NCBI RefSeq assembly: GCF_026210795.1
Contig: NC_089445.1
Span: 3,596,001-3,660,000, forward strand
Length of the DNA: 64,000 bases
Direction: 5' to 3'
From: Rhizophagus irregularis
Taxonomy: Eukaryota; Glomeromycota; Glomeromycetes; Glomerales; Glomeraceae
Below are positions 47,677 through 64,000 of this stretch, piece by piece. Position numbers and translations under genes: made by a program. The notes beneath the pieces are model-generated. The model was not told where the DNA came from, ran no database searches, and was given only the letters and a program-made list of their open reading frames with translations. The first letter of the stretch is position 1; the number at the start of each line of letters is the position of its first letter.

Positions 47677-48620
47677 AGTCAACTCCCTCTATAGTCACTC
47701 CCGTTATAGTCACATTCTACTATATAGTCACACCAGTTGAATGTTCAAAACACTTTATTATTAAAATCTATCCTATATAGTCACAATCTATCTATAGTCA
47801 CTATCACACCTATCCTCAAAAATCTTATATTAAAAAGAACCGTTTATAATCACAGTTACTATATAAAGAATATATTAAATAACTTGGCATCTAATAATCG
47901 TACAAAGATGTATCATAGCTTGTTAGAATTGTCTCACTGAGACGAATTGAATGGTGGTAGTTTTATCCTTTTCCGATCACTGGCTGACGAGTTGTTCAAC
48001 AAAATGTTAAACATCGGCATTATAATATTTCTTGATTTACGTTTACTACGCCATTTAACATTTTGCTAGATTTCTCGGTACCTAGTGATTGTAAAAAGAC
48101 GATTTATAGCTCGTTGGAATCGCCTCATCGAGACGAATCGAATGGTGGTAAGCTCATCTCTCTGTGATCAGATCAATATTGACGGAGTTATTACTTAAAA
48201 ACCATTTAATATTTTTTAATTTCGGAAATTGATCTAGTGATTGGATTTCGATGTATCTTATACCATTAGATTCGTCTCATCAAGGCAAATCGAATGGTAG
48301 TAAGATCGTCTTTCTAGGATCAATATTGACAGAGTTATTACACAAAAACCATTAAACTTTTTTAATTTCGGAAATTAATCTAGTGATTGGATTTCGACGT
48401 ATTTTATACCATTAGAACCGTCTCATCAAGACGAATCGAATGGCGGTATGATCATCTCTCTACGATTAATATTGGCCAAGTTACGATACAATAAAGTTTA
48501 AGTATAATTCTGGCTAAAATTATGTTAATTTTTGGCCAGAATTATGATATACAAATATAAGAAATTTTTTATATAGTCACATCTCTTTATAATCACCAAA
48601 TATTGAATTTTTGAAAATAC
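47677..48620. mobile_element. tandem-repeat non-autonomous DNA element, pogo-like left end
   Basis: The left end CAGTCAACTCCCTCTATAG follows a TA. TATAGTCAC words recur in the first 150 bp and again at about 48571 (tatatagtcacatctctttat). The interior has three to four tandem units of about 145-190 bp, each with gtctcatc.agacgaatcgaatggtggtaag-type sequence, at about 47925, 48117, 48273 and 48417. The right boundary is uncertain; the LINE begins shortly after. Confidence 0.5.
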
Positions 48621-48722
48621 TAATAGAAATTATTTTTGAAATTTTCGTTCGAAAATTTCTAAGTGCTCGTTCAAAATACTAATATTTCCACAGTTGCTTT
48701 CCTCTTTACTGAGCTTTATACT

Positions 48723-51116
48723 ATGACTTCACCTCCAGCTCCTTCTGTTATTAACCCGGATATTCCGCCACCACCGCGTCCTGTTACTTCTACTCCCTCT
48801 GGAGACCGACCTTTGTCTCCTACCAATACCGCTGGCGCTCCTAATAAACGTACACGTACTGTCTCGATGACGCGATGAATGTTGATATAACTTCGCCCTC
48901 AGCTCCTGCTCCCACCTTTACTTCTACCGTTCCTTCTGGTCTTCCTGTCAACAAAGTCCACGTGATTACTTCTCCTCAAAATATTACGCACTCCTGTTGA
49001 AACTGTTGACGCTTCTATCCATGCTCCCTCTAACACCAGTAATAAAGGCAAAGCTGTCATCTTTGATATCCCAGAACGACGACCATCTCTCGATGGCAAT
49101 GCTGCTGCTATCAAATCTGCACCCTCTCGTTATCATGCTGCGGCCTATCTACGCGACGCGCCTGACACGTTCAAAGCTAAATTCACCACCAATCGCTCTA
49201 TGTGTGACGAGGTGGATTGTTCACTCTCCCGTTATTCCTCTTATGGTGCTCGCGCACGATGCGATGGATCAGGCGATAACAAGAAAATCCTTGTCTTCTT
49301 TAATAATCATGATGATTATACCGATTGTATCACCTCTCCACGTGCCGATCTCCTCGATTTGGCCTTCAGTCATTACTTCCCTGCAGACGCCAAGCTCAGT
49401 GACGAGATGAAGTCCTTATTCGTCACTGATATCCCACTTTTCCTAACTGAGACTCAAGTCCGTCAGGCATTTTCCCGATATGGTACTGTAATCAAGTGCA
49501 AACTTACTTTTAGGAAACATTACTATAATGGACATATCCAGTTTTCCTCCGCGGATGCAGTTACCCAATTTAATGATATTTGGGCGATCATTTGCCTTGG
49601 TAATTCTTTACGTGTCTGCCCGGCATCTTTCTCGAAAACCCAACGCGACAGCCGTAGAGAACATGTCGCCATCCTTGCTGGCATCCCAAAGAATATTAAA
49701 GAAGCTGATCTGTTGGAAATTGCTACTCAAGTTAACGCTAAAGCCCTTAACGTTCCTCTATCTATCAGCTCCTACAAGCCTAAACCCTATGTATATTTGA
49801 ACTTCTCCTCGTTTGAATCTCTTGAAGCTGCCAAAAAAATGACCGTGGCTTTCCGCGGCAAAGGTTTAACTTGGCACCCTCCTAATGAAGCTCACACTTT
49901 ATGTCATATCTGTGGACGTTCGGGCTGCTCTCCTTCTGTATGTAGCCTTCGCCCCACACGAAAAGTGGACGATCGCCTTAACAAACTTTACTCTCGCTTC
50001 AATGCTGGCCCTAGACGTGGCCGTCAGGATTCACGACAATCACGTGACAATTCTAATTCCCGTTCAGGGACGATGATTTTTTGCGGCGGTATAAAGTAAA
50101 TTTTGTGTGTGATAAAAATAAATTTTGTGAAATTTTGTGATTTGGCCAGAATTATGCAAGGTTGGCCAACATTACTATTCGTAAATTCTGGTCAAATTTA
50201 GTGTCTGCCGGAATTATAATGATTTCAAATCCTAAATCAGGCCAAAAACTTGAAAATTATCAACATTTTTATAACCAAATTTTGTGATTTTCTGTGAAAT
50301 TCTGTGATCACAAAAAATCATCGTCCCTGTTCCCGTTCAAGATCACGTTCCAATTTTCGATCTCGCAATAATAATTCCTCTTCATCCCGCTCTAACAACA
50401 GCAATAATAAGTCTAACACTTTTCGTCCCAATACTCCTCGAAGTAGTAACCGGACTAACAATAATAATAATAATCCCAGGAACAATGGAAATTCTTCCGG
50501 ACCTACTCAACCTCTGCACAGACCTCATCCTATTATTTCTACAACACCTACTTTTTCATCTGACAATCCTGCCCCTACGCTTCCTCAACATATTATTGAT
50601 GAACTAAATGCACAGATTAAAGAGATCGCTAACACCCTCTATACTCTTGAGGAAACTGTCTCTTGGATGAATGATACTATCACGGCTCATGAGTATAGGC
50701 TATCTGAGCTGGAATCAATGATGAATTATGATGCCCCTGACGACTCTCAATTGTATTCGCCTCCAAATGATCATGACCAATATAATCATTCTTACAACAA
50801 TGGATGGGATGATGCTCCAACCCATGACATGAATTCTGGTTTCAATCTTCCTCCCCATACTTCCTCTTCTCTTATGGACGTTTCTCCTGATGCTTCCTTC
50901 TCAGCTTTGGATCCTAGCTCCATCCTATCAAAACGACATGTCCCCTTACCTGTTTCCCGACCTACTAATATCACCCCCGACGTTAACACTTTCCGTTTGC
51001 AATCAGAAATTTTTAATGTTACTACTACACAAAAGAATCTTTCTGCCCAACTTGGTTCGATTATGGAAAAATTGGACTCCTTCTCTCCTTCAAAACCCTC
51101 CCCTTCTAATGATTGA
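48723..51116 (+). pseudogene. LINE ORF1 (RRM-type nucleic-acid-binding protein), frameshifted and split by a MITE
   Basis: The ATG at 48723 starts a Pro/Ser-rich leader. Frame changes near 48875 and 48988 interrupt it, and the frame is then open from about 48990. Two RRM-like folds lie at about 49410-49830 (SLFVTDIPLFLTETQVRQAF, GHIQFSS, then HVAILAGIPKNIKEADLLE). A Cys/His knuckle (CHICGRSGCSPSVC) and an Arg/Ser/Asn-rich tail follow. The 265-bp hAT MITE at 50065-50329 splits the tail; MITE plus one duplication is 273 bp, so the frame resumes in phase and ends at 51116. In LINEs this protein binds the element RNA. GC content is higher than the flanking DNA. Confidence 0.75.
50057..50337. mobile_element. 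hAT MITE with 8-bp TSD TTCCCGTT inside LINE ORF1
   Basis: The element occupies 50065-50329 (265 bp), starting CAGGGACGATGATTTTTTG and ending with the perfect inverted copy (CAAAAAATCATCGTCCCTG). TTCCCGTT is duplicated at 50057-50064 and 50330-50337. CAGGG ends and an 8-bp duplication are textbook hAT. The interior has inverted TTTGTGATTT/AAATTTTGTG words and no coding capacity. Confidence 0.93.
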
Positions 51117-52200
51117 ACACCAATTTGTATCGGGTGTCTCACAGGGATTTCACCCCCCTGATAGTGCGATACCTAACTTTAATAGTCCTAATAATCCCCC
51201 TTCTCCTCCTTTTTCTTCTCCTCTTATTAACTTTGGACAAATTAATGTTAATGGATTATGTTCCCCTGTACGACAATTGCATTTGTTAAATTATTTCCTT
51301 CATTCTTCTTTTGGCGTTTTATCTTTAAATGATACTCGTCTTACTTCTTCTAGTGCTAAATTTATTTATCAAAATGAACATTCCCAACATAATTTTAAGT
51401 CCTATTGGGCTCCTTCCCCCTCTAATTCGCGACCACATGATGGTGTTGGTCTTTTACTTCGCCATCCTTTACACAAACATGTTCAGAAGATTGATCCCTG
51501 GAAAGGTCGTCTTTTAAAATTAGATCTTTTTTTTCATCAGACAAAAATTTCTATTATCTCTGTTTATATTCCTCCTTACCACTCTATTCATTATAAAGAA
51601 CGTGATGCTATTCTTGTTCAACTTAATTTATGGCTTGATAAAGCCCGTTCCAATAATTATCATGTAGTTATCCTTGGTGATTTTAATGCAGATGAAATTT
51701 CACATTCACATCTTCCTCAACATCATTTAAAAATTTTACGATCACTCTCTTCTCGATATTTTACGGATCACCAATCCCTTCTTTCCTCAATTTCAGGTCC
51801 TAGTCCTACCTTTTATCATCAAAATGGTTCTTCAAGACTTGATTATATCTGGTCATCCCCTGGATTTCCTGCTCCCGGTCTTTTCTCTCAAGTTGCAACT
51901 TGTCCTAAGCTGAATGATAATCAATTTACTGATCATTGTGTACTTATAACGGCCTTTGATTTTAGCTCATATTTCGCTATTTTATCCAAAGCTCGATTAA
52001 AGCAGAAAAGCGAACAACGCACCATCTTTCTTTACAAAAATTTGAAAGATGACACTTGGGACAAATTTTCCAATGAAGTAAACTCACGTCTTGATTTATA
52101 CTTGACCACACACCACCCTTCAGTATCTTCACTTTCAGCTCTTTCATTGGACAAACTTTGGCACGCTCTTAAACGTTCTATTCTTGGTGGTGCCATTGTC
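51109..52200 (+). pseudogene. LINE ORF2, AP-endonuclease part, 3' truncated
   Basis: The ATG at 51109 overlaps the ORF1 stop by 8 bases. The endonuclease/exonuclease/phosphatase domain shows GQINVNGLC, LSLNDTRL (Asp where Glu is usual), SVYIPPYHS, VILGDFNADE, SRLDYIW and FTDHCVL. The reverse transcriptase region, expected next, is missing. After LWHALKRSILGGA (about 52190) the frame runs into unrelated GC-rich sequence and stops at 52350. The endonuclease would nick target DNA; this copy lacks the polymerase and is dead. The break lies at or near the left border of the Polinton-type element. Confidence 0.75.
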
Positions 52201-52696
52201 GTCGGTCTGGATGTGGGTCTCGCTACCGCTCACCCACCTCGGACTCACGTCCTCGCAGTACCTACTTGGGCCTTAATGGCCCTGGAATCCCCATATATCC
52301 ACCACAATCTGGGACAACATCTGGAACAAATATATATACCAAATAACTAGAAAAAAATAGAAAAGGAAGCAATAACGGATATAGTGAGAGGGTTGTCCCG
52401 GATGTGGCAGATGTGGCAGATGTTTCAGAAAAATTATGAGAGGACATCCCCCCAGAAAAAGTTTTATTTTTACCCCCCAGATCCGCCACATCCGGAACAT
52501 CTGGAACAAGTCAGGATTCCGTCTAATAATCTGTTGGAGGCAGTGAGATAGCAAACCAGGTAAGTTAGCAGGTAAGCCCCTAGAAGGTCTATAGAGCCAG
52601 TAAGACCAACCCCGTCCTGCCCCCGTCAGAAAAAATAAGTAATTGAACAATGGGTATTGAGAATAGAGCATAACAAGATAAGTTTAGAAGGTAGTA
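52200..52696. other. probable left terminal region of the Polinton-type element
   Basis: Non-coding, GC-richer sequence lies between the LINE break and the first element gene. The word acatctggaacaa occurs at about 52316 and 52497, and ccggatgtggcagatgtggc (52397-52416) is inverted as gccacatccgg at about 52484-52494, so a hairpin with a loop of about 70 bp is possible. Polintons carry terminal inverted repeats of 0.1-1 kb, but the other end is outside the window, so the exact border cannot be shown. Confidence 0.4.
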
Positions 52697-53017
52697 CTAA
52701 TCCGTCTTCCTCTTTTTTGCCTCCTTAAGGCATTTATCAATACACTGTTTACACGCATCATCAGAATCTAAGATTTTCTGTCCAAGTTTTTTGCATTGCC
52801 GATTGTAAGCAGTCTGCTGTCTCTTAGCAGCGGTTTCTTTCTTTTTCTCCTTAGTCTTCTTCTTGATCATCCAGTCTATTCCAGTAAAAGTATTCTTATG
52901 CATACCACAAATTGTGCAGTCACCATGCAGCCGGTAACGCCCATTTGTAGTCATATCTTGTATTTCACTAGCCGTTTCAGTTTCCTTCTTGCACTTTAGG
53001 CAGTAAAAACGTGTCAT
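52697..53017 (-). CDS. zinc-ribbon protein (DUF5679-like)
   Basis: 106 aa. C6xxC9 and C34xxC37, with YCLKCKKETE and TTNGRYRLHGDCTICG, match the small zinc-ribbon family (DUF5679-like) common in large DNA viruses and their relatives. A basic Lys-rich tail with three more Cys (about 80-95) follows. It is transcribed divergently from the integrase with about 44 bp between start codons. The role is unknown; nucleic-acid binding is plausible. Confidence 0.6.
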   Translation of the reverse strand: MTRFYCLKCKKETETASEIQDMTTNGRYRLHGDCTICGMHKNTFTGIDWMIKKKTKEKKKETAAKRQQTAYNRQCKKLGQKILDSDDACKQCIDKCLKEAKKRKTD

Positions 53018-53061
53018 TTTAAGATTTGAAGTCTAAAACCATTCCTTTAATTTGTTGTAAT

Positions 53062-54153
53062 ATGTCACACTTAGAGAATTACTATAAGTACTACAATCTC
53101 TCCGGAGTACCAGCACGAATTCTAAAAGGTGAAGAGCACTACAACCTATACAAAAAGCCCCTAAAGGAAAAGTCAACAGAACGCCCAAAGGTAATTGTAT
53201 GGAAACCAAATGCAACACATCAGGCAGATCTTGCAGAAATGCCAGTTGACCCCAAAGGATTCCACTATTTTCTCGTAGTGGTGGAAGTTGCAGGAAAGAG
53301 AGTTGATGCAGAACCCCTAAAGGATAAGACTGCAAATAGAGTTCTAAACGGGTTTGTCAAAATCTACAGAAGAAATCGTATTAAGCCACCAACACACAGA
53401 CTGGAGACAGACTCCGGATCAGAATTCACTAACGACCAGGTACGTGATTTTTTCCTGAACAGCCTAGGGGTAATGATGAGGTTCGGAGAGCCAGGAAGGC
53501 ATAAACAGCAATCTTATGCTGAAAGAGCTATCCAAGCCATCCAAGAACCCCTTCTTAAACGAATGGTAGCACAGGAGTTGAAAACCGGGGTGACATCCGT
53601 GGAATGGTCAGAAGATTTCCATAATATAGTGAGTAAAGTAAATGAACTCTGGCAGAGAAATCCCCCAGACATTCCGACAGGATCACCCAAAGTGTCAAAA
53701 AAGACGGATCTCCTCTCTGAAGGAGCACGTGTCAGAGTCAAGTTAGATGAACCTATCTCAGTACTCGGTAATAAACTTCACGGAAAATTCCGTACAGGAG
53801 ACATAAGATGGAACCCAAACATTCGTGTAATCAAAAAAATGATACTCTCACCCGAACAGCCTCCTACATATCTCCTTAATGGACCACATGGTCGATTAGG
53901 TGTATCCAGATGTGCATATACCCGAAAGGAATTGCAAGTAGTTCCTATTAATGAAAAGCCTCCACCTGACTCTGTGATAAGAGGACAACCTGAAAGATTT
54001 ATTCCTGAGCAGATACTTCGGCATCGCATTAGAAAAGGTCAAGACCAGTATTTGGTTAAGTGGGAGCGCTATCCAGACACTGAGGCTACTTGGGAACCTG
54101 CTGACCGGTTGAAGGAGGATGTCCCTGACTTAATTCGCAAATTTTGGGAATAA
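53062..54153 (+). CDS. Polinton-type integrase with C-terminal chromodomain
   Basis: 363 aa from the ATG at 53062. An in-frame ATG at 53026 would leave only 8 bp to the divergent gene, so the later start is preferred. The rve fold has D56 (THQADLAEM), D117 (LETDSGSEFTN) and E154 (QQSYAERAIQ), i.e. an intact D,D-36-E triad. The C-terminal 50 residues are a chromodomain (RHRIRKGQDQYLVKWERYPD then TEATWEPADRL). Polinton integrases insert the element with 6-bp target duplications; the chromodomain is expected to read histone marks and bias target choice. It is complete and apparently functional. Closest look-alikes outside Polintons are Ty3/chromovirus integrases, but no reverse transcriptase is near. 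Confidence 0.85.
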   Translation: MSHLENYYKYYNLSGVPARILKGEEHYNLYKKPLKEKSTERPKVIVWKPNATHQADLAEMPVDPKGFHYFLVVVEVAGKRVDAEPLKDKTANRVLNGFVKIYRRNRIKPPTHRLETDSGSEFTNDQVRDFFLNSLGVMMRFGEPGRHKQQSYAERAIQAIQEPLLKRMVAQELKTGVTSVEWSEDFHNIVSKVNELWQRNPPDIPTGSPKVSKKTDLLSEGARVRVKLDEPISVLGNKLHGKFRTGDIRWNPNIRVIKKMILSPEQPPTYLLNGPHGRLGVSRCAYTRKELQVVPINEKPPPDSVIRGQPERFIPEQILRHRIRKGQDQYLVKWERYPDTEATWEPADRLKEDVPDLIRKFWE

Positions 54154-54179
54154 AAAAAAAATAGAAGAATTAAAGGGTC

Positions 54180-54920
54180 TTATTTTTTATCCCCTCGATT
54201 AGCATCAGGAACTATCGGGATAAAAACATTCTTCCCATCACAGGTAAAGGCTATATGTTCACGTGATTCATGGACATCATAATTGTAACGTTTCAGACAC
54301 GTTCGGCTTAACCCAATTTCCCTATGCTTGTAACCACTTAAGACTGCAAGGTCCTCAGTGATAGCATAATCAGGGGTAAGTTTGATTGTCACTCCCTTTA
54401 CCATGCCGAATGTCCTACCTGTTCCTGAAGCACCAGATATGTTATATGTAATACTCTTGTCAATATCCAACCCTAATTCCTCAGCAGCTTCTCTCTGAAT
54501 AAAAGACGCATTAGCACAAGTGTCTGCTAAACACTGAATTGCTATTCCATTAACCTCCCCATCCAGTGCTAAAAGATCTTTAGTATTCTCTAAACGAGCT
54601 ATGTCAATATCCATAGGATCATCTACCCTGATATCCTCTTCTTGTTCCTCCTCAACTAGGTCCTCCGGAATCTCTGTGACTTTTCTAGCAGACAATAACT
54701 CCTCCTGAAGAATCTCACGGAGTAATTTCCTAAAGTCTGCAGACCTTAACAGGCTTAATAAATCATTCTTAGTAACAGCTTTTGCAGGTGTAAACTTACT
54801 ACCAGTAACTTTCACAGGAATCTTAACAGGGGTTGCTTTGCCTTTCAATGGCACACTAGAAGAGCTAACTGCTGTCTTATTTGGGGACGACTTAAGAAGT
54901 TTTGAGATACTCGAACCTAC
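54180..54920 (-). CDS. retropepsin-like aspartic protease, read by -1 frameshift from Gag
   Basis: The frame is open from the slippery site at 54920-54926 to a stop at 54180 (about 246 codons) and has no good ATG before the domain. A linker rich in Lys/Ser/Pro is followed by the protease: GIAIQCLADTCANASFIQRE holds the catalytic Asp in a DTC context instead of DTG. A flap-like ISGASGTGRTFGMVKG and the LSRTCLKRYNYDVHE stretch resemble the closing hydrophobic-Gly part of retropepsins. A substitution at the Gly after D-T is unusual and could reduce activity. In retroelements this enzyme dimerises and cleaves Gag. It is on the strand opposite to the integrase, tail to tail with 26 bp between stops. 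Confidence 0.7.
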   Translation of the reverse strand, partial: VGSSISKLLKSSPNKTAVSSSSVPLKGKATPVKIPVKVTGSKFTPAKAVTKNDLLSLLRSADFRKLLREILQEELLSARKVTEIPEDLVEEEQEEDIRVDDPMDIDIARLENTKDLLALDGEVNGIAIQCLADTCANASFIQREAAEELGLDIDKSITYNISGASGTGRTFGMVKGVTIKLTPDYAITEDLAVLSGYKHREIGLSRTCLKRYNYDVHESREHIAFTCDGKNVFIPIVPDANRGDKK

Positions 54921-56346
54921 TTTTTTTTTGACCCAACACGAACCATATAGACATCACCATCTTTTTCTCTCAATTCTACCTTTTCACCAAAACTCGCAGT
55001 ATCAATGTCCATAGCATCATCATTAAGATCGAGGTTTCTCATTGCTCGGGCCAAATCCAGATCATCACGTCTATCTTTAGCCTTCTGAAGTTGTTTTGTA
55101 AGTATTTTAGACGTCCCACGTTTATATCCCATAATAAGATCAATAGCATTTTGATGATCATCCAAAGTCCACTCAGGAGCATCAGGGTCATCACCAACAT
55201 CATGATCTACATAACCATCATCCCAATCAGGATCCTGAGGATCCTGAACAACACGTCTCTGTGGTTTTGGTCGAACAGGTTTAATCTGCTGTCTATAGAC
55301 TGGTGGATTACGAACTGGCCGAGCCTGTAATTGTTTAAATTGCACCTGAAAATTCTTGGTAAGTTCGTCAGCTTGAGCCTTAAGTAACTCTTGTAATTGT
55401 TCTTGAGTAACCCCAGATGACTTTGATGTCAGTACGACAGGTTCCTGTTTTCCTAATGGAGGTTGAGTTACATCACTGTAATCTGCTTGAAGTCGTCGAT
55501 TTCTATCTTGTAACCCCAAGCGCATTTCAGCCCTTCTCCGTTCTAAATTTCTCAGATGTTTAACCAAGTCATCAGGATTAAGATTACTAAACCTTTCTGC
55601 TTCAAAAATATTATCAGCCGAAAGACCTCTAAAGAACTGGTCGATAATAAGATCATCAGTTAGTTTTAGTAATTTTCCAGCTCTCTTTACAGTTCTATAA
55701 AATGCATCGACTGGCTCATTTTCCTGATAAAGACTGTTAAAACGGATACGTTTCTTTTCATCTAAAATAGTTGGGAATTGTGTTCTAAGCCAATAAAGCG
55801 CCTGGTTAGGTTTAATACCTGGAAAAACTATAGGATGATTATTAGCAGCAGCAACACCAGCATCTGCAGTAGCTGGAGCAACTCTATCTGTCGGACGAGC
55901 ACCAGCTCTTCCCAAGCTTTATCTCCACCTATTAAATCATGGGTAGGAATAAATGTTGCTCTAATAGTTGCTAATGCATTATTTATATCTCTTGAATAGA
56001 TTTGTGCTTCAGACCCATTTACATAGGTACCTGCATTTGGTCCTCCTGCACCTTCTGGTATTACTAATGCTACAAAAGCAGCTAAATTAGCTCCACCAGC
56101 TGAATTAATACTAGAAAGTTCCCAATTTTTTCCTGTAATTTCTCGATCAAACCATTCAGCCGCTTCACCAGCCATGCAGCTTCTAAGTATACCCATAGCT
56201 CTTTTCCAAGACTCTGGTGGCCCTCCAGCAGCGTATGGGTTAAGATTGATAGTATCAAGATAACCCATATAAAGCCTAACAAATGTATCAATATCATCAG
56301 TAGCTTTACCCTCAAAAATTGGCAATCCTATCGCAGTGGTAGCCAT
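54917..56346 (-). CDS. retrotransposon-type Gag protein, with one internal frame break
   Basis: The ATG at 56346 opens the capsid-like N-terminal half: GLPIFEGKATDDIDTFVRLY, ERWKRAM-like PESWKRAMGILRSC and GEAAEWFDREITGKNW, the pattern of the retrotransposon Gag (PF03732-type) fold. The frame must shift by -1 near 55900 to continue as ARPTDRVAPATADAG, QALYWLRTQFPTILDEKKR and AFYRTVKRAGKLL..FFRGL. The latter is the rest of the Gag fold. A Pro/Arg/Gln-rich linker and an acidic region follow to the stop at 54917. No CCHC knuckle is visible. The unshifted frame instead runs 30 codons into Leu/Ile low complexity. No slippery heptamer is seen there, so this break is probably a mutation. Confidence 0.7.
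54920..54926 (-). promoter_or_regulatory. -1 ribosomal frameshift site A_AAA_AAG
   Basis: In the Gag frame the last codons are TCA AAA AAA AAG TAG. The heptamer A AAA AAG is directly followed by the Gag stop, and a -1 slip continues into the protease frame (AAA AAA GTA GGT). This is a canonical X_XXY_YYZ shift site. No strong downstream stem-loop or pseudoknot is obvious by eye. Loss of one A in the nine-A run would give the same frame effect, so a mutation or sequencing error must be considered. Confidence 0.6.
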
Positions 56347-57125
56347 ATCGTCTCTAGTGGATTGTTTAATATAGGTGGAGGAGGGTTCAATTGTCTAATT
56401 CGAAACCATTGTACCTGAATTCTAAGAGCAGCTATCTGTTGGAAAAGTCTATTCCTAAGTCTCCCTAATGTCTGAATCCCAAAACGCACCCTATTATTAG
56501 CATGTGCTAGCTGTACATTAACCTGTCCAAGTTGTGCATTAGCCAATACAAGTTGTCCTCCAGTCCGAGTAGCCCTCAGCCGCCAATGATTTAAAAGGAT
56601 ATTACCACGATTCACAGCATTTTGAGCCTCATTACGATCCCTTACTGCTTGAGTATAATCTGCTTGTAATACATTACGTTCATGTCGTGCCTGATTACGT
56701 TCACCTATAGCCCGTCGACGAAGCTCTACCATAGTATCATAATCTCTTTGCAGGTTATGGTTTTCTTCTATAAAATTATCATTGGCAGCACGTATAATAA
56801 CTAATTGACGTTCTAAATTAGTAAACGTTTCATCAAATGCATTTATCTTACCTTGTGCAAAAACTAACAAATCTTTTGTAATACCAAGTTCTTCATGTTT
56901 TGCTTTACAGCGATACATTAATATATTAATAATATGTTTGATTTGATTATTTGCCTCCTGTATCTCTGAATCAACAGTTAAACGACCCCTGGTAGTCAAT
57001 AAATTTGCATGAGCCTTTAGTATTCTAACTAATTCATCATCGTCTTCTTCATTAGCCAAGTGTGCAGGAGGCGGTCCAGTAGGTTCTGAAGGAGTATAAA
57101 CTGGAATTGGTGTTGATGTCGACAT
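56328..57125 (-). CDS. coiled-coil protein upstream of Gag
   Basis: 265 aa from the ATG at 57125. A short Pro/Thr leader is followed by about 200 residues of coiled coil (NLERQLVIIRAANDNFIEEN, RNQARHERNVLQADYTQAVR). The last 19 bases overlap the Gag ATG in another frame (ATATGG), so reinitiation or a -1 shift could couple the two proteins. The position immediately before Gag suggests a structural or assembly partner; this is inference. The start codon is 31 bp from the divergent ATPase start, implying a bidirectional promoter. Confidence 0.65.
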   Translation of the reverse strand: MSTSTPIPVYTPSEPTGPPPAHLANEEDDDELVRILKAHANLLTTRGRLTVDSEIQEANNQIKHIINILMYRCKAKHEELGITKDLLVFAQGKINAFDETFTNLERQLVIIRAANDNFIEENHNLQRDYDTMVELRRRAIGERNQARHERNVLQADYTQAVRDRNEAQNAVNRGNILLNHWRLRATRTGGQLVLANAQLGQVNVQLAHANNRVRFGIQTLGRLRNRLFQQIAALRIQVQWFRIRQLNPPPPILNNPLETIWLPLR

Positions 57126-57156
57126 AGTATTTAAACTAAGTTAGAATAAAATTCAA
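57126..57156. promoter_or_regulatory. 31-bp bidirectional promoter between coiled-coil and ATPase genes
   Basis: Only 31 bp of AT-rich sequence (agtatttaaactaagttag.. type) separate the two divergent ATGs, so both transcripts must start here or within the opposite gene. No defined promoter motif was identified. Confidence 0.4.
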
Positions 57157-58380
57157 ATGGATCTTTATGTATACAATTTGGATGAGTACACGACCGACTC
57201 AAGACAAGGCAATGAGTTTGCTCCATCATGGCCCTTTCGATTAGCCGTAGCAGGTAGCTCAGACTCAGGTAAGACAACTATGATTATTAACTTGTTAATG
57301 GGTGACAAGAAGGCAAAGGAGGATGGTAATCGGTATGTACTATGTGATGCAGTACTTTTAGTTGGCAGATATCTTAACGAGCCAAAGTGGGCAGTTGTAC
57401 ATGATTTTTTCGAAGAGGAGAAGATCCCATTCACTGCAGTAACCCATAGTGAGATTCCAGAGATTGACTCCTTCGACCCTACTCAAGCTACTGTGGTAAT
57501 CTTCGAGGATCTGATGGATGCACCTAAAAAAATCCAGGATCTTATCACTGGTTACTTTACACATGGACGACACAAAAATATTTCATGTATTTATGTAGCT
57601 CAAAGATTCTTTGCCATTCCTAAGGCTATTCGAGAAAATGTTAACTACATCTCACTGCATGGAGGTCATGGGAGCCTTACAGATACTAAGAGAATCATTC
57701 GCCTATATACAGAAGAATCAGAGTCATTAGCACCAGTAATTGATGATCTTACTTTGCAACGTGAATTTGTAGTGTTTGATCTTAGACGGTCTAAAAGTGA
57801 TCCACTGTCCATTCGAGTAAGATGGGATACTAGTCTCAGTTCGATCACAGAGCAATCTCAGTTCAATCCTAGTTCAATCTCAGTTCAATCTCAGTTTGAT
57901 CCAAGTTTGAACCCAGTTCGATCTCAGTCTGAACCCAGTTCAATCACAGTTCGATCCAAGTTTAGTCCCTATGGTCAGAAAGCTGTATCTGAAGCAAAAA
58001 AAGGTGGACACTTGATTGAATTTGCTCGGGTATTTCCATCCCCTAAAGAGCGTCAACATTTACTTGTACCTGGTGTCTTAGCCAAGAATACAGATACCTG
58101 GATTAAATTTGTCTTTCGGGAAGCTTATGGACTCTCTGGTAAGACCCTAGGAGCTGACTTTCAGGACTTCTTAGCAAAAGTACAGGGTAGGACTGCAAAG
58201 ACTGAAACTCTGAAAACTGAGAATGTGAAGGAGTTATTCTCCCGATATGAAGCCCTGAAGTCTAGTCGCCCTCTGGATAATAAAAAAATAATAGAAGGTA
58301 TTGAAGTCCTTCTACAGATCTTTTCTAAGAGCCACATGGACCGTCGAGCATTACAAGTAGGGATTAATAGTATCTTGTGA
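57157..58380 (+). CDS. A32-like genome-packaging ATPase (FtsK-HerA superfamily) with extra C-terminal domain
   Basis: 407 aa. Walker A is AGSSDSGKTT (residues 32-41), Walker B VVIFED (113-118), and GYFTHGRHKNISCIYVAQRF (132-151) followed by IRENVNY carries the conserved Arg/Gln motifs of poxvirus A32-like ATPases, used by Polintons and NCLDVs to pump DNA into capsids. Residues about 228-268 are an imperfect 4-residue repeat (SQFNPSS/SQFDPS) coded by 12-bp DNA units. Residues 275-407 form an additional domain (IEFARVFPSPKERQHLLVPG) not recognised. The start is fixed by the short divergent spacer. The 3' end overlaps the convergent gene by 17 bp. Confidence 0.85.
   Translation: MDLYVYNLDEYTTDSRQGNEFAPSWPFRLAVAGSSDSGKTTMIINLLMGDKKAKEDGNRYVLCDAVLLVGRYLNEPKWAVVHDFFEEEKIPFTAVTHSEIPEIDSFDPTQATVVIFEDLMDAPKKIQDLITGYFTHGRHKNISCIYVAQRFFAIPKAIRENVNYISLHGGHGSLTDTKRIIRLYTEESESLAPVIDDLTLQREFVVFDLRRSKSDPLSIRVRWDTSLSSITEQSQFNPSSISVQSQFDPSLNPVRSQSEPSSITVRSKFSPYGQKAVSEAKKGGHLIEFARVFPSPKERQHLLVPGVLAKNTDTWIKFVFREAYGLSGKTLGADFQDFLAKVQGRTAKTETLKTENVKELFSRYEALKSSRPLDNKKIIEGIEVLLQIFSKSHMDRRALQVGINSIL
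57838..57963 (+). repeat. 12-bp minisatellite inside the ATPase gene
   Basis: About ten imperfect cagttcaatcyn units keep the frame and encode the Ser/Gln/Phe-rich linker. Copy number may differ between copies of the element. Confidence 0.75.
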
Positions 58381-58735
58381 GAATATCAAGTAATTCGTCT
58401 GCAGAAGCTCTAAGAATCATAGCACTTTTTTTACGGCCTTCAAAGTCAATCCTTAACATCTTAGCCTTCAACCCTATTGCTCCTAAAGCACGAGAAGCAA
58501 AGTTCTTAGTCATTGGATTACTTATATGATTTACATAGTTCTCATAGAATGTAGTGAAAGGCTCGTCAATACCATCTGGATATGTATCTCTTAGAAATTG
58601 ATATAAAGCAATTTCTCCACTGTCACAACCTATGGCTATAAGCTGTTCGAGAAGCCACTTCCTAATATCTTCATATGGCTCTCCATCCATAATTTTCATA
58701 TCCAGTCTTTGTGTAAACAATTGTGTAAAGTCCAC
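58364..58735 (-). CDS. hypothetical protein of the Polinton-type element (123 aa)
   Basis: The start at 58735 lies 1 bp after the stop of the next upstream gene (58737-58925), so they probably share a transcript. The protein looks alpha-helical (DIRKWLLEQLIAIGCDSGEI, KNFASRALGAIGLKAKMLRI), without membrane segments or zinc motifs. The 3' end overlaps the ATPase 3' end. Function unknown. Confidence 0.55.
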   Translation of the reverse strand: MDFTQLFTQRLDMKIMDGEPYEDIRKWLLEQLIAIGCDSGEIALYQFLRDTYPDGIDEPFTTFYENYVNHISNPMTKNFASRALGAIGLKAKMLRIDFEGRKKSAMILRASADELLDILTRYY

Positions 58736-58736
58736 A

Positions 58737-58925
58737 TTACTTCCCCTGACGAATGATCTGAACTAACTTATTCCTAGCAAGTCCCAAGGCTTGTAGAGGG
58801 TCATTCTCATTACTAATCTTCTTTATAATCTGTCTGTATAACACGCTGGATAATCCTCTATGTGCTGTTTTTGGAGTGATTACTCCACAGTTTTGGCATT
58901 GGTTTATTACGATTGATGTTGACAT
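58737..58925 (-). CDS. small CxxC protein (62 aa), possibly RPB10-like
   Basis: C10xxC13 near the N-terminus (NQCQNCGVITPK) and a C-terminal helix with PLQALGLARNKLVQII. The layout recalls the small RNA polymerase subunit RPB10, in which an N-terminal CxxC pairs with a CC in a D.LGL.RYCC helix; the CC is absent here (NK). The similarity is weak and may be coincidental. It sits directly upstream of the 123-aa gene. Confidence 0.4.
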   Translation of the reverse strand: MSTSIVINQCQNCGVITPKTAHRGLSSVLYRQIIKKISNENDPLQALGLARNKLVQIIRQGK

Positions 58926-58970
58926 GGCTATCTTTCTTTATGTAAAAAAGAATTATTCAAAATTAAGTAA

Positions 58971-59552
58971 CTATTCGGAGCAGTCCTTGCACAACTTGTC
59001 CGTTAAGTCACTTGGGCTTACAGGCATGAGACATTCCCTACACAACTCAATATTAAGCTCTGCAAGTCTCGGGGTATGGTCCTCCAAAGTTCGTGGATGA
59101 CCGGAAGGACCAGAGGAAGGTGTTCCGTTAGTCGTATCTTGCTGTAAGATAAAATCATCATATTCATCTTGGTCAGCCTGAATAGCGGCCCTGATTTGTT
59201 GTATATCATTGAAAGTTAACCGCTGCCCATCAAGATTTTCCTCATTATAGCGTGTTTCATTGATGATTTCCTCTATAAGCGCCTCTTCTTCATAATGGAC
59301 AAGGTAGTAATCCTCAACTACCTCATAGTCACTCTCAATCAGTCTATAATATGTTCTAGTACCACGTCGAACATAACGTCCTGTATCTGTATTTAAATAT
59401 ACAGGTTGCTCTTCAGGTGGAGGTGCAGTTTGTCTACGGACAAGCCTTCCATCAATATAATCATGGGATTCCATAACTATTCGATTAAAGGTATCTCCAC
59501 CGATAATAATTGGACGTCCAGTTATAGGGTTAGCTATATAAGGGTAAGACAT
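58971..59552 (-). CDS. NPxTGR-motif protein with C-terminal zinc finger (193 aa)
   Basis: The N-terminus YIANPITGRPIIIGGDTFNR fits the NPxTGRxIxxGG motif seen in virion proteins of giant viruses (the '2-cysteine adaptor' type), but without the flanking Cys. A second partial copy, LNTDTGRYVRRGTRTYYRLI, follows near residue 55. An acidic helical middle and a C-terminal CRECLMPV...CKDC zinc-binding pair complete it. It is probably a structural or adaptor protein (inference). Confidence 0.5.
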   Translation of the reverse strand: MSYPYIANPITGRPIIIGGDTFNRIVMESHDYIDGRLVRRQTAPPPEEQPVYLNTDTGRYVRRGTRTYYRLIESDYEVVEDYYLVHYEEEALIEEIINETRYNEENLDGQRLTFNDIQQIRAAIQADQDEYDDFILQQDTTNGTPSSGPSGHPRTLEDHTPRLAELNIELCRECLMPVSPSDLTDKLCKDCSE

Positions 59553-59611
59553 GTCTTTTTTCTGTATGTGTCTACATACCTAATAGTTTTCTTCAATTTA
59601 CAATAACCAAG

Positions 59612-59822
59612 TGACATGGTCATCAGTCCTTGTCGAAAAAAAATGCAAGGATACCTGATGATAAAGTTACATGGTCATCAATCCTTGTCAAAAAAATGCA
59701 AGGATACCTGATGATAACGTTACATGGTCATCAATCCTTGTCGAAAAAATTCAAGGATACCTGATGATAAGGTTACATGGTCATCAGTCCTTGTCAAGAA
59801 ATATGAGGATACCCGATAAATA
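59612..59822. repeat. four tandem hairpin units between genes
   Basis: Units of about 58-62 bp contain tcatcagTCCTTG, a short A-rich loop and CAAGGAtacctgatga, so each unit can fold back on itself with a 13-bp stem and a 3-base bulge. The units start at about 59619, 59669, 59728 and 59781, and the fourth is diverged. The array fills the gap between two minus-strand genes. It could act in transcript termination, replication or packaging. Confidence 0.75.
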
Positions 59823-59824
59823 AG

Positions 59825-60112
59825 CTACTCCTGTTGAGTCCATTCATTCCACTTCCAGTCCAGTCTCCAAGGATCGCCTCCCCATCTTTGTTCACTTAAT
59901 GCATGCTCTATGGTTTCCCTCTCTTGGGGGTCCACGACCATCCCATTCCTAAGCATTTTCTCCATAATATAAAGCTGATCCTCGGTGAGGCGGTCTATCC
60001 ATCTTTTATAGAAGTCGTTTACATCTTCAAATGATATCCAGTCAATATTCCCTTTTTCAAACGGCTTTCCAAGAGCTTGGACATGCCCAATTGTAGTAGC
60101 GTAATTTTTCAT
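59825..60112 (-). CDS. hypothetical protein (95 aa)
   Basis: The ATG at 60112 overlaps the stop of the upstream F-box-like ORF (ATGA), indicating translational coupling or a split gene. The protein is rich in Trp (WISFEDVNDFYKRWIDRL, DPWRLDWKWNEW) and has an acidic helical centre. No family was recognised. Confidence 0.5.
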   Translation of the reverse strand: MKNYATTIGHVQALGKPFEKGNIDWISFEDVNDFYKRWIDRLTEDQLYIMEKMLRNGMVVDPQERETIEHALSEQRWGGDPWRLDWKWNEWTQQE

Positions 60113-60240
60113 CTCTTATATGCTTCTTGACGAACTTCCTGCCACCACACACTATCTACTTTACTCGCTGCAATAAGGTCAGTATCTGGGATCTTTGCAA
60201 CAATGCGTTCGACTATTTCTACTGGTAATCGGTCCAACAT
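60109..60240 (-). CDS. F-box-like mini ORF (43 aa)
   Basis: The ATG at 60240 gives LDRLPVEIVERIVAKIPDTD and LIAASKVDSVWWQEV, the LPxEI..I...I...DL..AS.V...W pattern of an F-box. It ends with TGA at 60109-60111, overlapping the next ATG by 4 bases. An F-box would link targets to SCF ubiquitin ligase through Skp1. With no substrate domain in the same frame, the partner may be the coupled 95-aa protein. Confidence 0.5.
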   Translation of the reverse strand: MLDRLPVEIVERIVAKIPDTDLIAASKVDSVWWQEVRQEAYKR

Positions 60241-60349
60241 GATGTTATGTTACTTATACTATAGCCATCTTCAATTACTGTATGCCTATTACACATGGAT
60301 AAAAAATATAGACTAAATTCGTACAGGATCGTAGGACCACAGGAGCCGC

Positions 60350-60820
60350 TTATGCAAGAAGTTCTGTTAAGGTTTTCTCAGCCTCGTTTTTAGTAATAGC
60401 TCGCTTTGGGGGACCGGTTGATGAGTCCTTAGTCGCATTATAATACAATTCGAAGAGGGCCTCAAGTTTGTCTAAAAGAGCTTGTTTATTCTTGTATGAT
60501 TCACGAATCTTTGCTATCTTAGCAGTATATGCTGCATTATCTGGGAAGAGTTTTCTGGCCACGAACTTCACATATGATACAGGAGAATTTGCCGTCTGGA
60601 TTCGCTTGATATACTTCACATGATCCTGGACAAGGTAGCTGGTTTTGCTAAACCCAGATACTAATGCGACTACTATAGTGTCTTTCAATGCACGGATAAT
60701 CTTGAGGACAGTTTCATCAGAGACAATGGTGAACTGATTGTGTGATGCATCATAAATAACTTTATCACTAATGCTGTCAGTGCTGTTAATAATGCTTGCT
60801 AATTCGGTATATGTTGACAT
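60350..60820 (-). CDS. hypothetical protein (156 aa)
   Basis: The ATG at 60820 lies after an AT-rich spacer. The N-terminal half is beta/alpha mixed (DKVIYDASHNQFTIVSDETV), and the C-terminal half is a basic helical segment (AKIAKIRESYKNKQALLDKL). No zinc, membrane or enzymatic motif. It lies between the F-box pair and the DNA polymerase on the same strand. Function unknown. Confidence 0.5.
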   Translation of the reverse strand: MSTYTELASIINSTDSISDKVIYDASHNQFTIVSDETVLKIIRALKDTIVVALVSGFSKTSYLVQDHVKYIKRIQTANSPVSYVKFVARKLFPDNAAYTAKIAKIRESYKNKQALLDKLEALFELYYNATKDSSTGPPKRAITKNEAEKTLTELLA

Positions 60821-60933
60821 GATTCCTTATACTTTTTTGTACTTTGTAATAAATAGGAATCTTCAAATTGACTTTACATTCAAGCAAGAAAAAATATATA
60901 TACCTACTGTAAATCCAACCGCATTCTTGGCAA

Positions 60934-62814
60934 TCATGTCCAGATAACCTTGTTTGCATTTTTCACATGGCAGTATCCTGCGGTTTCAAACTTGAGAGCT
61001 TTCAATGCTTTGGATGCATTTTCTGGACAAGTGATAAGTGTAGGACTACTCGGCTGTTCCTCTAGAATAAATCCATCTGTATGGATGCGTCGTACTTTAT
61101 CCTTATATGGTTCTAATAACTCTGAAGTCGTCTTTCGTCCATGTGCTAATAAGAATGGAGCGATCCTAGGATATTCCCCTTGAAGGGACTACCTGGGTTT
61201 GTGAACTGGAATCAGCCACTGGTCAGATCCTACTGGTACGATGGAGTCAAGTGTGTGGCCTTCTGGAAACTTGAATGGATCTGTTTGATCTGTGGTGAGT
61301 GTCTTGTAATTGCGTTTCCTCTGGCAGAGTGCTCCCCATAGTGTATTGAGAACTCTCTTTGCAACACGACCGGCCACGCCACCCTGGTTCTTTATATTGA
61401 AGAGAAAGTGGACATACTCACCAAATATTACAGTCCCAGGAATTCTTGCTTCTCTGTCATATATCAAGGCATTTGGCTTTCCATCCTGAATTAACTGTAT
61501 ATCGAGTCCAAGTTTCTTTGCTCGTTGTAAGTCAATGAATGTATAGACTCCCCTCTTATTCTGTCGGAAGAGAATGTCATTACCACTTACCTTGCCCTTG
61601 GGCGCTCCCTGGGAGCTAGCACGAAATAATCCATACAAGGCATAACCTCTATGGTCTACAAAGTCTTTGAGTATTTGAAACTTACCTTGTCGGATTGGAA
61701 AGTTTGCATTTGATTGCTGAATACTTGGATACAAACTTGTCACGTCGTATTGCCTTCCATAGCCCTTCCATTCATTGTCTGCCCAGATAAGACCTCCCAT
61801 CATTGCATCACTTATCCACTCTGCTTCGACTGGGTCAAGAGGATCATTGGCTGGAACCCCTACACTAAACCGTTCAAAAAGCCAGAGTGCAGTTCTCTTG
61901 TACGACCAGTTGTGGTAAGATAAGTCGATTCCTAGACCGAACTTCTTTGTAGCCTGTAGGAAGGAATCCCGCTCTTCATGGATCCTCTGGTATGTTTCCT
62001 CAAGTGTTTCATATATTCCAGTTTTACAATTCTTCTCGATAGGGATGAAGGAGTAACTATCAGAGTTCTTACCTTTCTGAAACTGTCCAACTGTAAGAGA
62101 CTTAACTGTCTTACCATTGTATATTGTTACTACATTATTAACCCCATCTTCACGATAAACAAAGGGAGACTTTTGTTTTCTATCTAATTTGCTAGGGTGG
62201 AGTCTTCCGGGATTCAGTGCAAGAGAGTAGTGGCCTTCAGACAGGATAAGTGTTGCACGTCTGTCAGATTTGCTCTTGGAAATTCGAGTGGAATCCCCTA
62301 CAATATTAAGTGCAAGGCTTCCTGCAAGTTGTTCAACCTTATCCATATATGAGACTGGAACTGGAGCATCACGATTGAGACCTAATGCCTTTTTGATATA
62401 CTCGGGCTTTTTGATTGACTTTGGCATTTTAGAGAATGTGCCGTAGATATATTTCAGGCATTCATACAGGCAATCATTTAGCTCCCCGTTGCAACCCCCT
62501 GCAACCGGTGGGGCATCTCTCACATAAATTATGAATCGTTCAAAATAATCAGGGTCTGCATCATCCGGTAGTTGTGCTTCGTCGTAGTGGTCCAAGAGTG
62601 AGAAGAGGCTGGCTGGTTGGTTTCCTGATGTCCATCCACCGGGTTTCCAGTTTTCATAGGGAAGCAGAATCTGAAATTTATGTGTCGGATACCGGGATTG
62701 GAGTTGCTGTCCAAGTCTGGCAATAGCTCCTCTAGAAAATCTTGCGCCTGAATACTGTAGTTCTTTGATATCTGGTCTTGTAGGCAAAGCACGTGCAATT
62801 TTTGAATAGGCCAT
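60934..62814 (-). CDS. polB: protein-primed-type family B DNA polymerase with in-frame TAG
   Basis: The ATG at 62814 starts 541 codons, then TAG at 61189-61191, and the same frame continues 84 codons to 60934. Motif A is DVTSLYPSI (357-365) and motif B KRVLNTLWG (486-494). Motif C appears only after the stop, as RRIHTDGFIL (HTDG where DTDS is usual), followed by AGYCHVKNANKVIW. Residues 105-200 hold NDCLYECLKY (C115) and SEGHYSLAL (H195), a Cys/His pair like a papain/OTU-type fold rather than a clear 3'-5' exonuclease. Without readthrough the enzyme lacks motif C and would be inactive. Polintons use this polymerase to copy themselves from protein-primed ends. Confidence 0.75.
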
Positions 62815-62897: not shown

Positions 62898-64000
62898 TTA
62901 AAAGGAGTCAATCATATCACAGGCCTCATCAATATCCAGCTCGTCTACAAATCCATTAGCGGCTTCCCATTCACGTTCCATATCAGTTTTTGGACGTTCC
63001 TCTGGGATTTCTCGTGCCTTACCCTTATTCATCTTCATAGTTTCATAACCGGAGGTGGTAGGGATAATCTCGGCATCATGATCCTCCTTATATGCTCTTA
63101 TTAGATCTGCGAGTTCTTTACGGCTAGGTGTTTTAGGTAAGTACCCATTATATTCTATCCAGTCCTTGAAGCGGTCTACTACCTCCCTAAGGTAGTACTG
63201 GTACTCGTCCTCAATACGTGTTGTGGGACATTCCTCTACTTCAAACGCGAGTATTTCCCAGTCATAGTTGTCTGACACGTCTTGGTACTTAGCCCATAAA
63301 TCCTTACCTGTATTGTGGAGATCATTGAAGACCTGGTCCTTTGAATTCTTGACCCATGGCTTACGATCCCATCGGTGCCTTTCATGCCAAGCCCAGTGTG
63401 CTTGAGTACCTTCCTTTGGTTCAGGGTCCCAGTCAACTTCTAGTTCTGTGTCGGGTTCTGGGATAGGTTGCTCTTCAGGAGCCGGTTCTGGGTCAGGCTT
63501 AGTGACAGATGCAGAAAATTCTGCGGGAGACTCGGGTTGTTGCTCAGGAACTGGGTTCACAGTTGTAAAATCTGAGTCAGATAGCAAGTCATCTAAAATG
63601 TCGTAGTCATCATCAGCTTTAAATGCAGGTTCCTCAGCAGGCGGCTCATTTTCTTGATCAGGTTCCTCATCAGATAAATAACAGTCCGAGAAGCTATCTA
63701 TAGGTTCATCAGTATCTGATTCTATAGGAGCTGGAGATTCCTCAGGAATAGGATCCTCATTGATGACAGGTGCGGGTTTTACCTTCAAGCAATCGGGCTT
63801 AAGTGGTACTGGTGGTGGAGTCTTTTTGGAAACTGGTTTCTCTTCAGTAGGCTTCTTCTCAACAGGAGCGGGTTTTTCCTCAGCAGGTTTCTCAACAACT
63901 GGCTCCACTTCCTCTTGATCTACTTGCGATTTACTAGCTGGATTATATATATTTGCTAAGAACTTCACCAAGGCATTTGGATCAGATGTAGGCTTCTCAG
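62898..64000 (-). CDS. acidic Pro/Glu-rich protein, 5' end outside the window
   Basis: The frame is open to the right edge, so the start is missing. The first visible 190 residues are low-complexity repeats of EKPAPVEKKP and PEPAPEEQPIPEPD type with acidic clusters. The last 150 form a folded-looking domain rich in Trp/Tyr (GTQAHWAWHERHRWDRKPWV, DRFKDWIEYNGYLPKTPSRK). It could be the terminal protein or a structural protein, but no motif proves either. Confidence 0.5.
   Translation of the reverse strand, partial: EKPTSDPNALVKFLANIYNPASKSQVDQEEVEPVVEKPAEEKPAPVEKKPTEEKPVSKKTPPPVPLKPDCLKVKPAPVINEDPIPEESPAPIESDTDEPIDSFSDCYLSDEEPDQENEPPAEEPAFKADDDYDILDDLLSDSDFTTVNPVPEQQPESPAEFSASVTKPDPEPAPEEQPIPEPDTELEVDWDPEPKEGTQAHWAWHERHRWDRKPWVKNSKDQVFNDLHNTGKDLWAKYQDVSDNYDWEILAFEVEECPTTRIEDEYQYYLREVVDRFKDWIEYNGYLPKTPSRKELADLIRAYKEDHDAEIIPTTSGYETMKMNKGKAREIPEERPKTDMEREWEAANGFVDELDIDEACDMIDSF

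Follow-up and report, generated by a model that had tools for sequence, protein, structure and literature searches.

A Gag-retropepsin module between the integrase and ATPase genes of a Polinton-like element in Rhizophagus irregularis

Introduction

Has the capsid of Rhizophagus Polintons been lost, or has it been replaced by a capsid of another kind? Polintons of Rhizophagus irregularis, a root symbiont kept as a laboratory strain and with spores sold commercially (PMC10234402), are already in the literature. A 2021 paper counts the Polinton of Rhizophagus (Glomus intraradices) with those in which no capsid gene is detectable; by its account, missing capsid genes suggested that the capsid had been lost and that such elements live as transposons, and still none is found in the Rhizophagus Polinton (PMC7805220). 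Another paper reports no MCP, no A32 and no D5 gene in five R. irregularis genomes (PMC10640383). The A32- and D5-like matches described below conflict with the last two negatives, and the MCP negative is weak support since giant-virus markers may simply miss such elements. The window analysed here, a stretch of 64,000 nucleotides, contains most of an element with a Gag-retropepsin module in the morphogenesis position. This arrangement is a testable alternative and a candidate answer to the puzzle, namely that the capsid was replaced rather than lost.

Limits and gene content of the element

The R. irregularis element is 14.3 kb long and extends from window position 52198 to C17:3662520. The original prediction had drawn it too short, its right end lying 2,520 bp beyond the window end. 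The left terminal inverted repeat (TIR) of 460 bp (52198..52657) is a 99.8% identical inverted match to its right partner (C17:3662061-3662520, beyond the window), and the target-site duplication CCATT is found on both sides (52193..52197 and C17:3662521-3662525), giving the full-length copy with both TIRs that had been sought. The empty target site is an uninterrupted unit, GTGCCATTGATT, found elsewhere in the genome (L010). Duplications of 5 bp are present in the three copies checked (CCATT, ACACT and TCGCC; the one of the second C17 copy was read by eye).

The Polinton hallmark trio that had been predicted is present. An RVE (D,D,E) integrase with a carboxyl-terminal chromodomain is encoded in an open frame on the plus strand (53023-54153; rve E=5.5e-9, Chromo E=4.3e-17) and has 111 matches genome-wide. 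The A32-like ATPase of FtsK/HerA type, with a putative role in packaging, is also open on the plus strand (57145-58380, with a gene start placed at 57157); its Pox_A32 match (E=3.2e-9) passes the cut-off and it has 107 matches in the genome. PolB lies on the minus strand from approximately 60900 to 62814; the ORF at 61189-62823 matches DNA_pol_B_2 (E=1.2e-7). Its frame is broken in the window at ~61.19 kb, with a stop at 61189, and is open in other copies, reaching 617 aa in copy L017. Motifs suggest that its amino-terminal parts are TP-like and OTU-like, and its motif C reads HTD. Next after PolB is an SF3 helicase with an acidic tail, whose carboxyl-terminal part lies on the minus strand at 62898..64000 and which continues to ~C17:3661496, in two frames in this copy; in copy L017 this protein matches DUF5906 (1.3e-17) and Pox_D5 (9.1e-6) in Pfam. 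Sequence-based structure searches with the helicase and the ATPase matched nothing useful, and scans of viral contigs for relatives of Gag, ATPase and PolB found none.

Further ORFs lie on the minus strand. A small Cys-rich ORF with CxxC pairs (52697..53032) is present in the 7 element copies read. No family is assigned to the product of 58364..58930 (upper limit approximate), which is open over 132 aa in the window and 186 aa long in copy L022, nor to a 158-aa protein (60350..60826) kept in both subfamilies of the element. The protein encoded at 58971..59552 has a weak 2-cysteine-adaptor-like match under the Pfam cut-off. A repeat search also revealed short tandem repeats spaced by ~53 bp (59583..59801).

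The Gag, retropepsin and coiled-coil genes

The original prediction of a Gag, retropepsin and coiled-coil block between integrase and ATPase is confirmed for the presence of the block; the coiled coil is a reading of the sequence. The three genes are on the minus strand. Gag (54917..56346) has an open frame in other copies, 484 aa long in copy L023; in the window its frame is broken in two near 55.9 kb. The putative coiled-coil protein (56328..57125; 265 aa in copy L023) overlaps the Gag start. The retropepsin-like aspartic protease (54180-54953), as predicted, matches Asp_protease_2 (E=1.1e-8); its reading frame is shifted by -1 from that of Gag. The usual active-site motif of retropepsins is DTGA or DSGA; the motif here is DTCA, which makes catalysis uncertain.

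Homology of the element's Gag to retroelement Gag is supported by profile comparisons. The carboxyl-terminal half of the window Gag gives a weak Retrotrans_gag match under the cut-off (E=0.06) and the amino-terminal half has no Pfam match. Among 30 family members, 14 match Retrotrans_gag with E<=0.1 (best 2.6e-4), member 1 giving no match. A profile of the family aligned to Gags of presumed LTR elements in this genome, represented by 12 sequences from about two families only, scores 60.0 with an HHalign probability of 95%, against a best score of 18.4 in 60 column-shuffled controls. Both the amino-terminal part (score 51; shuffles <=18.5) and the carboxyl-terminal part (25.5; shuffles <=16.4) contribute, at 21-26% identity. 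PEG10 is the best PDB sequence match (E=0.071), which alone is not significant. The 27 Gag homologues examined, drawn from jgi/ena/lgn sources, all lack a zinc knuckle; 22 have a basic triplet within the last 9 residues, by a loose test, and in 19, as counted by eye, the sequence closes with KKK or KKR and at most 2 further Gln.

The overlap between Gag and protease holds an A-run of nine A followed by G (54920..54929, minus strand), a possible slippage site, with the Gag stop TAG next to it. This overlap with A-run and Gag stop is common to both subfamilies. At the 16 distinct loci read, the run is A9 in 13, A8 in 2 and A10 in 1, the A8 and A10 loci being incompatible with a -1 shift. For the stretch 3' of the A-run, the two sequences analysed, one per subfamily, gave no fold more stable than shuffling would produce. 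The assembly reads are Nanopore R9.4.1 (PMC10234402), with which homopolymer miscounts are possible, and this bears on the A-run lengths.

Conservation and selection

The genome contains 113 gag loci. Integrase and ATPase are both at most 5 kb away in 84 of them, one or both partners missing within this distance in the other 29. Conversely, Gag is found within 5 kb at 101/108 integrase loci and at 84 of the 85 loci where integrase and ATPase are at most 6 kb apart; the 85th, in C14, has a decayed Gag between the two genes. Copies with the same genes but without Gag, which would have spoken against the original proposal, were not found among these 85 pairs. Seven of 108 integrase loci and nine of 101 ATPase loci have no Gag inside 5 kb. 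When match lists were compared by eye, four of these seven integrase loci had a Gag 5-12 kb off, one was the 85th pair, and C14:3513078 and C5:5072248 had no Gag listed nearby; seven of the nine ATPase loci likewise had a Gag at 5-12 kb and one was the 85th pair. At the ninth ATPase locus, C24:2538678, another element has inserted into the gag of the copy. Of these exceptions, C14 and C24 were read. Two subfamilies, whose Gags are ~54% identical, hold the gene at the same place. The number of gag loci and their near-constant synteny exclude chance. An assembly chimera is ruled out by the more than 100 loci and by other records, several from R. irregularis with gene models for Gag-protease and a single Gag fragment from R. 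diaphanus.

Purifying selection is clear on the protease and weaker on Gag. Between subfamilies, dN/dS is 0.14 for the protease (bootstrap 0.09-0.21) and 0.45 (0.35-0.59) for Gag from about residue 85 on, with a near-neutral value of 0.78 in the Gag tail (residues 345-480). The corresponding values are 0.095 for the ATPase, 0.061 for the integrase and 0.072 for PolB.

Probable replacement of the morphogenesis module

No Pfam match to a double jelly-roll MCP or penton was obtained in the 10 + 10 ORFs scanned, which are part of the element's ORFs. The profiles DJR-like_dom and Capsid_NCLDV had no match in the genome, their positive controls giving no match either. An Ulp1/adenain-type cysteine protease is likewise without match in the ORFs scanned, the retropepsin being present instead. 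A jelly-roll gene past the window was considered and rejected: the remaining 2.5 kb, which end with the right TIR, otherwise contain the SF3 helicase and a small ORF that matches nothing in Pfam. A search for direct repeats of at least 20 nt around the 54180-57125 block gave none, the genes on either side adjoin it within ~30 bp by their coordinates, and the TIRs and 5-bp duplication belong to the element as a whole, which argues against a nested insertion. The absence of nested insertion, the synteny, the Gag homology, the frame at the A-run and selection together lead to the conclusion that, as originally proposed, the jelly-roll and cysteine protease module appears to have given way to a Gag-protease of retroelement origin, the putative packaging ATPase being retained.

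Possible working of the element and alternative explanations

Taken as a whole, the observations are probably best explained by a Gag-retropepsin module serving a DNA element. The block would be transcribed and Gag made, slippage at the A-run yielding some Gag-protease fusion as a minor product, in the manner of retroelements; the frame arrangement for this is observed. Gag, perhaps together with the coiled-coil protein, would build a shell matured by the retropepsin. PolB and the SF3 helicase, judging from their families, would replicate linear DNA from the inverted-repeat ends. The novel step would follow, in which the A32-type ATPase fills the Gag shell with DNA. The chromodomain integrase would finally insert the DNA with the 5-bp duplication that is seen at the target. 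Particles and DNA packaging by the element are what we infer from this gene set. If particles form, capsid modules can cross between eukaryotic virus-like elements of two widely different classes, an A32-type ATPase is able to serve a shell that is not jelly-roll, and virus screens by jelly-roll capsid genes overlook such groups. A bolder reading, which we put forward tentatively, is that a dsDNA virus-like lineage inhabiting arbuscular mycorrhizal fungi relies on Gag alone for its capsid, the ATPase pumping a protein-primed linear genome into the retropepsin-matured shell and capsid types being swapped between subfamilies by recombination. If true, Varidnaviria-type replication and packaging machinery would be joined to an Ortervirales capsid.

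The element could instead be a capsid-less transposon, as MCP-less Polintons were earlier interpreted (PMC7805220), in which Gag is a nucleoprotein, the product of a cargo gene, or a factor that silences or restricts the LTR retrotransposons sharing the genome, and the ATPase serves replication or segregation. Interference with LTR retrotransposons is possible because the genome is rich in Retrotrans_gag genes (at least 150 matches), and Gag homologues without zinc knuckle also agree with this explanation. We regard it as rather unlikely, since the -1-frame protease is retained behind Gag in both subfamilies under selection, which suits maturation better than restriction, and the ATPase is strongly constrained. 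Presumed LTR elements with a homologous Gag share the genome and might provide borrowed or mixed shells, these or other viral particles co-assembling with the Gag of a helper-dependent satellite. The low identity to those LTR Gags and the element's keeping of its own ATPase and protease make this improbable.

Two further explanations touch the nature of the module itself. Gag and retropepsin are retroelement genes and could derive from a retrotransposon fragment nested in a Polinton and amplified by chance. Such an origin is very improbable: there are no LTR-like direct repeats, no reverse transcriptase or RNase H match in the ORFs scanned, the position is the same in two subfamilies and selection acts on the genes. 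Equally slight is the chance that 'Gag' is a capsid or scaffold protein of some unrelated and so far unrecognised kind, with a fortuitous resemblance. The weak Pfam score of the single window sequence and the non-significant PDB match would allow it, but the similarity to LTR Gag profiles is found in two distinct regions and the protease is directly behind in the -1 frame.

Comparison with known systems

The element shares with Polintons/Mavericks the RVE integrase with chromodomain, a family B polymerase, an A32-type ATPase, long TIRs and a target duplication. It differs from them in its Gag and retropepsin, and none of the ORFs scanned matched a double jelly-roll MCP, a penton or the cysteine protease. 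The target duplication of Polintons is 6 bp. The label 'Polinton-type' has to be used with reserve in view of the short PolB (617 aa) with its HTD motif C, the separate SF3 helicase and the 5-bp duplication. Maverick integrases can carry chromodomains (PMC10799480). The integrase of the element may be of Polinton or of LTR (chromovirus) descent. Nine MCP-less Polintons are described as missing protease and ATPase as well (PMC4028283), whereas the R. irregularis element keeps its ATPase.

Mavirus-like virophages also have an RVE integrase (PMC4409740), an ATPase and a separate SF3 helicase. For mavirus, a TP-vOTU-palm PolB is described in which the exonuclease is reduced to a remnant and motif C lacks its first Asp, the SF3 helicase being separate (PMC11071308). 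By this description, the PolB of the element, with its 617 aa and HTD motif C, and the separate helicase look more mavirus-like. These virophages differ in that their capsid module is of the jelly-roll kind and their protease a cysteine protease, for both of which the element has no match in the ORFs scanned. With LTR retrotransposons and Ortervirales it has in common a Gag with amino- and carboxyl-terminal profile similarity, the retropepsin 3' of Gag, the Gag stop at the A-run and the protease in the -1 frame; it differs in that no RT, RNase H or LTRs were found and in having replication proteins of dsDNA-element type. Bidnaviridae provide a precedent for the union of a Polinton PolB with a foreign capsid module (PMC4061559), a parvoviral jelly-roll in their case, whereas the capsid candidate of the R. 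irregularis element is a retroelement Gag, of another capsid lineage.

Element Limits and Gene Content

The genome searched comprises 146.7 Mb in 32 contigs, the window being C17:3596001-3660000. Blastn comparison between copies delimits the element from window position 52198 to C17:3662520, with terminal inverted repeats (TIRs) of 460 bp that are 99.8% identical. The element covers the span of the original prediction, 52697..62814, and extends further. Two more near-identical copies were read, on contigs C17 and C24. Duplications of 5 bp (CCATT, ACACT and TCGCC) were found at all three copies whose ends were examined, of seven copies read. The window copy is inserted in a repeated sequence, LINE-like to judge from its ORFs, whose array spans window positions 48604-52198 and pieces L009-L014; in piece L010 the target repeat is found uninterrupted. 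On C24 (L015:1-3455, L016:7777-10000) one subfamily's element sits in the gag of a copy belonging to the other, flanked by the 5-bp duplication TCGCC.

From left to right, the element encodes a small Cys-rich ORF (-), a chromodomain integrase (+), a retropepsin (-), Gag (-), a putative coiled-coil protein (-), an A32-like ATPase (+), an unknown protein that is 186 aa long in another copy (-), a protein weakly matching the 2-cysteine adaptor domain (-), a small F-box-like ORF found in relatives, an unknown 158-aa protein (-), PolB (-) and an SF3 helicase with an acidic tail (-), followed by another small ORF and the right TIR. Of the set first proposed, ORF analysis and Pfam recover integrase, ATPase, PolB and retropepsin, with Gag as a weak match and the coiled-coil protein as a putative one. 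Two Pfam scans of 10 ORFs each, covering part of the small ORFs, gave no cysteine protease, reverse transcriptase or RNase H, nor the jelly-roll gene sought as evidence against the original prediction. By coordinates, integrase and ATPase each lie within about 30 bp of the Gag block. Frames of Gag, the 186-aa protein, PolB and the helicase are broken in the window copy and open in other copies. The adaptor match (window 58971-59552) has E=0.0019; this domain occurs in large DNA viruses. The F-box matches at L017:1777-2118 and L022:2108-2551 are weak and below cut-offs (E=0.005 and 0.13-0.14).

Gag Is a Resident Gene of the Element

A genome search, for which the Gag query was a C-terminal piece, gave at least 122 matches for Gag, 107 for the ATPase and 111 for the integrase, corresponding to 113, 101 and 108 loci after joining nearby pieces. 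Of the 113 Gag loci, 84 have both partners on the other strand no more than 5 kb away; the others have integrase only (17), ATPase only (8) or neither (4). The chance of a random point falling near an integrase locus is about 0.007. Where integrase and ATPase lie no more than 6 kb apart, no copy devoid of Gag emerged, which would have spoken against the original prediction: Gag is found within 5 kb at 84 of these 85 loci, and the 85th (C14, piece L027) carries a decayed, divergent coiled-coil/Gag/protease block in between. A second subfamily has the same gene order, with identities of 93% for integrase, 86% for ATPase, 80-87% for protease (two alignment methods), about 54% for Gag and 42-55% for the coiled-coil protein. 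Since Gag occupies the same place across loci and in a divergent subfamily, it is an old, resident gene of the element. The last 60 residues of the coiled-coil protein (210-269; protein at window 56328-57140) are mostly 80-85% identical between subfamilies, unlike its strongly divergent middle.

The window Gag alone matches Retrotrans_gag weakly (E=0.06). This family is hit at E<=0.1 by 14 of 30 aligned homologues, the best reaching 2.6e-4. The best PDB match of the alignment profile is PEG10, a Gag derived from a retrotransposon, with an E-value of 0.071 that alone is not significant. A comparison profile was built from 12 loci of this genome that match Retrotrans_gag (nine near-identical, three of a second type) and are taken to be LTR elements because their open frames are long. 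Aligned with this profile, the N-terminal part of Gag reaches a score of 51.3, its C-terminal part one of 25.5 and both joined one of 60.0, the roughly 85 residues in between being excluded; the maxima of 60 column-shuffled controls are 18.5, 16.4 and 18.4, respectively. No zinc knuckle was found in the 27 Gag homologues examined.

Gag/Protease Junction

An A-run, a G and the stop codon close the Gag frame. When the run has nine A, the protease is read in the -1 frame with respect to Gag, much as at the gag-pro slippage sites of retroelements. Transcriptional slippage at the A-run is equally possible; no stabilising fold was found downstream. The A-run and stop are kept between subfamilies while their flanks differ. 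Among 16 distinct loci, 13 have A9, two A8 and one A10, the latter two lengths changing the frame relation; these variants may be sequencing errors because the assembly derives from Nanopore R9.4.1 reads, as stated in excerpts of PMC10234402. A basic triplet lies in the final nine residues of 22 of 27 Gag homologues from jgi/ena/lgn sources, presumably metagenomic; 19, counted by eye, terminate in KKK or KKR plus no more than two Gln. The five lacking the triplet comprise four short proteins (228-391 aa) and one full-length homologue, P0110. The protease motif is DTCA in 102/102 proteins matching the search pattern, an unusual variant of the common DTGA/DSGA.

Selection and Probable Exchange of Modules

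Between subfamilies, with one pair of copies per gene, dN/dS is 0.061 for integrase, 0.095 for ATPase, 0.072 for PolB, 0.141 for protease (bootstrap 0.09-0.21), 0.453 for Gag from about residue 85 on (0.35-0.59) and 0.561 for the coiled-coil protein. Within Gag, residues 80-290 have dN/dS of 0.28-0.36 at a dS near saturation (1.5-2.0), and residues 345-480 have 0.78 at a dS of 0.25, values from which this tail appears to be under little constraint. In the Gag homologues P0151 and P0068 the C-terminal tails almost match those of P0026 and P0001, and the cores differ. This suggests recombination of capsid cores, which may be swapped as a module while the remaining sequence recombines. Helicase N-terminal parts are apparently of two kinds among copies with near-identical PolB (L022:2852-5215 versus L009:2-1496 and L017:5308-7743), as if this module were also exchanged.

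Interpretation and Relation to Known Systems

The chimera is real and fixed, and at least partly selected. The reading that Gag-protease replaced the morphogenesis module is strong. As a candidate mechanism, a Gag shell would enclose the element DNA; this is the best one at hand, and we hold the full packaging claim tentatively, at somewhat short of even chances. The explanation as a whole, combining replacement with DNA in a Gag shell, we consider reasonably probable.

Excerpts of earlier work report a Polinton of Glomus intraradices (R. irregularis) with no detectable MCP, and none found since (PMC7805220), nine MCP-less Polintons also devoid of protease and ATPase (PMC4028283), a PolB tree whose legend names R. 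irregularis (PMC4409740), and recently expanded Mavericks, many copies of which are lowly methylated (PMC8647823). R. irregularis genomes are likewise reported to have no MCP, A32 or D5 (PMC10640383); the latter two absences are at odds with the A32- and D5-type matches described here. The excerpts of these five papers do not mention Gag in Polintons. Among the open-licence papers listed, none was found to describe the Gag and Polinton combination, which may have been described elsewhere, for instance in subscription journals or on bioRxiv.

The PolB, 617 aa long where its frame is open, has motifs A (YDxTSLYPS) and C (HTDGF) and keeps Cys and His motifs, read here as an OTU-like domain. According to excerpts of PMC11071308, mavirus PolB is organised as TP-vOTU-palm with only a remnant of the exonuclease, does not have the first Asp of motif C, and is separate from the SF3 helicase. 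Gene set and PolB sequence fit a candidate place in the Polinton/mavirus neighbourhood. Capsid-module chimaeras with a Polinton PolB have a precedent in PMC4061559.
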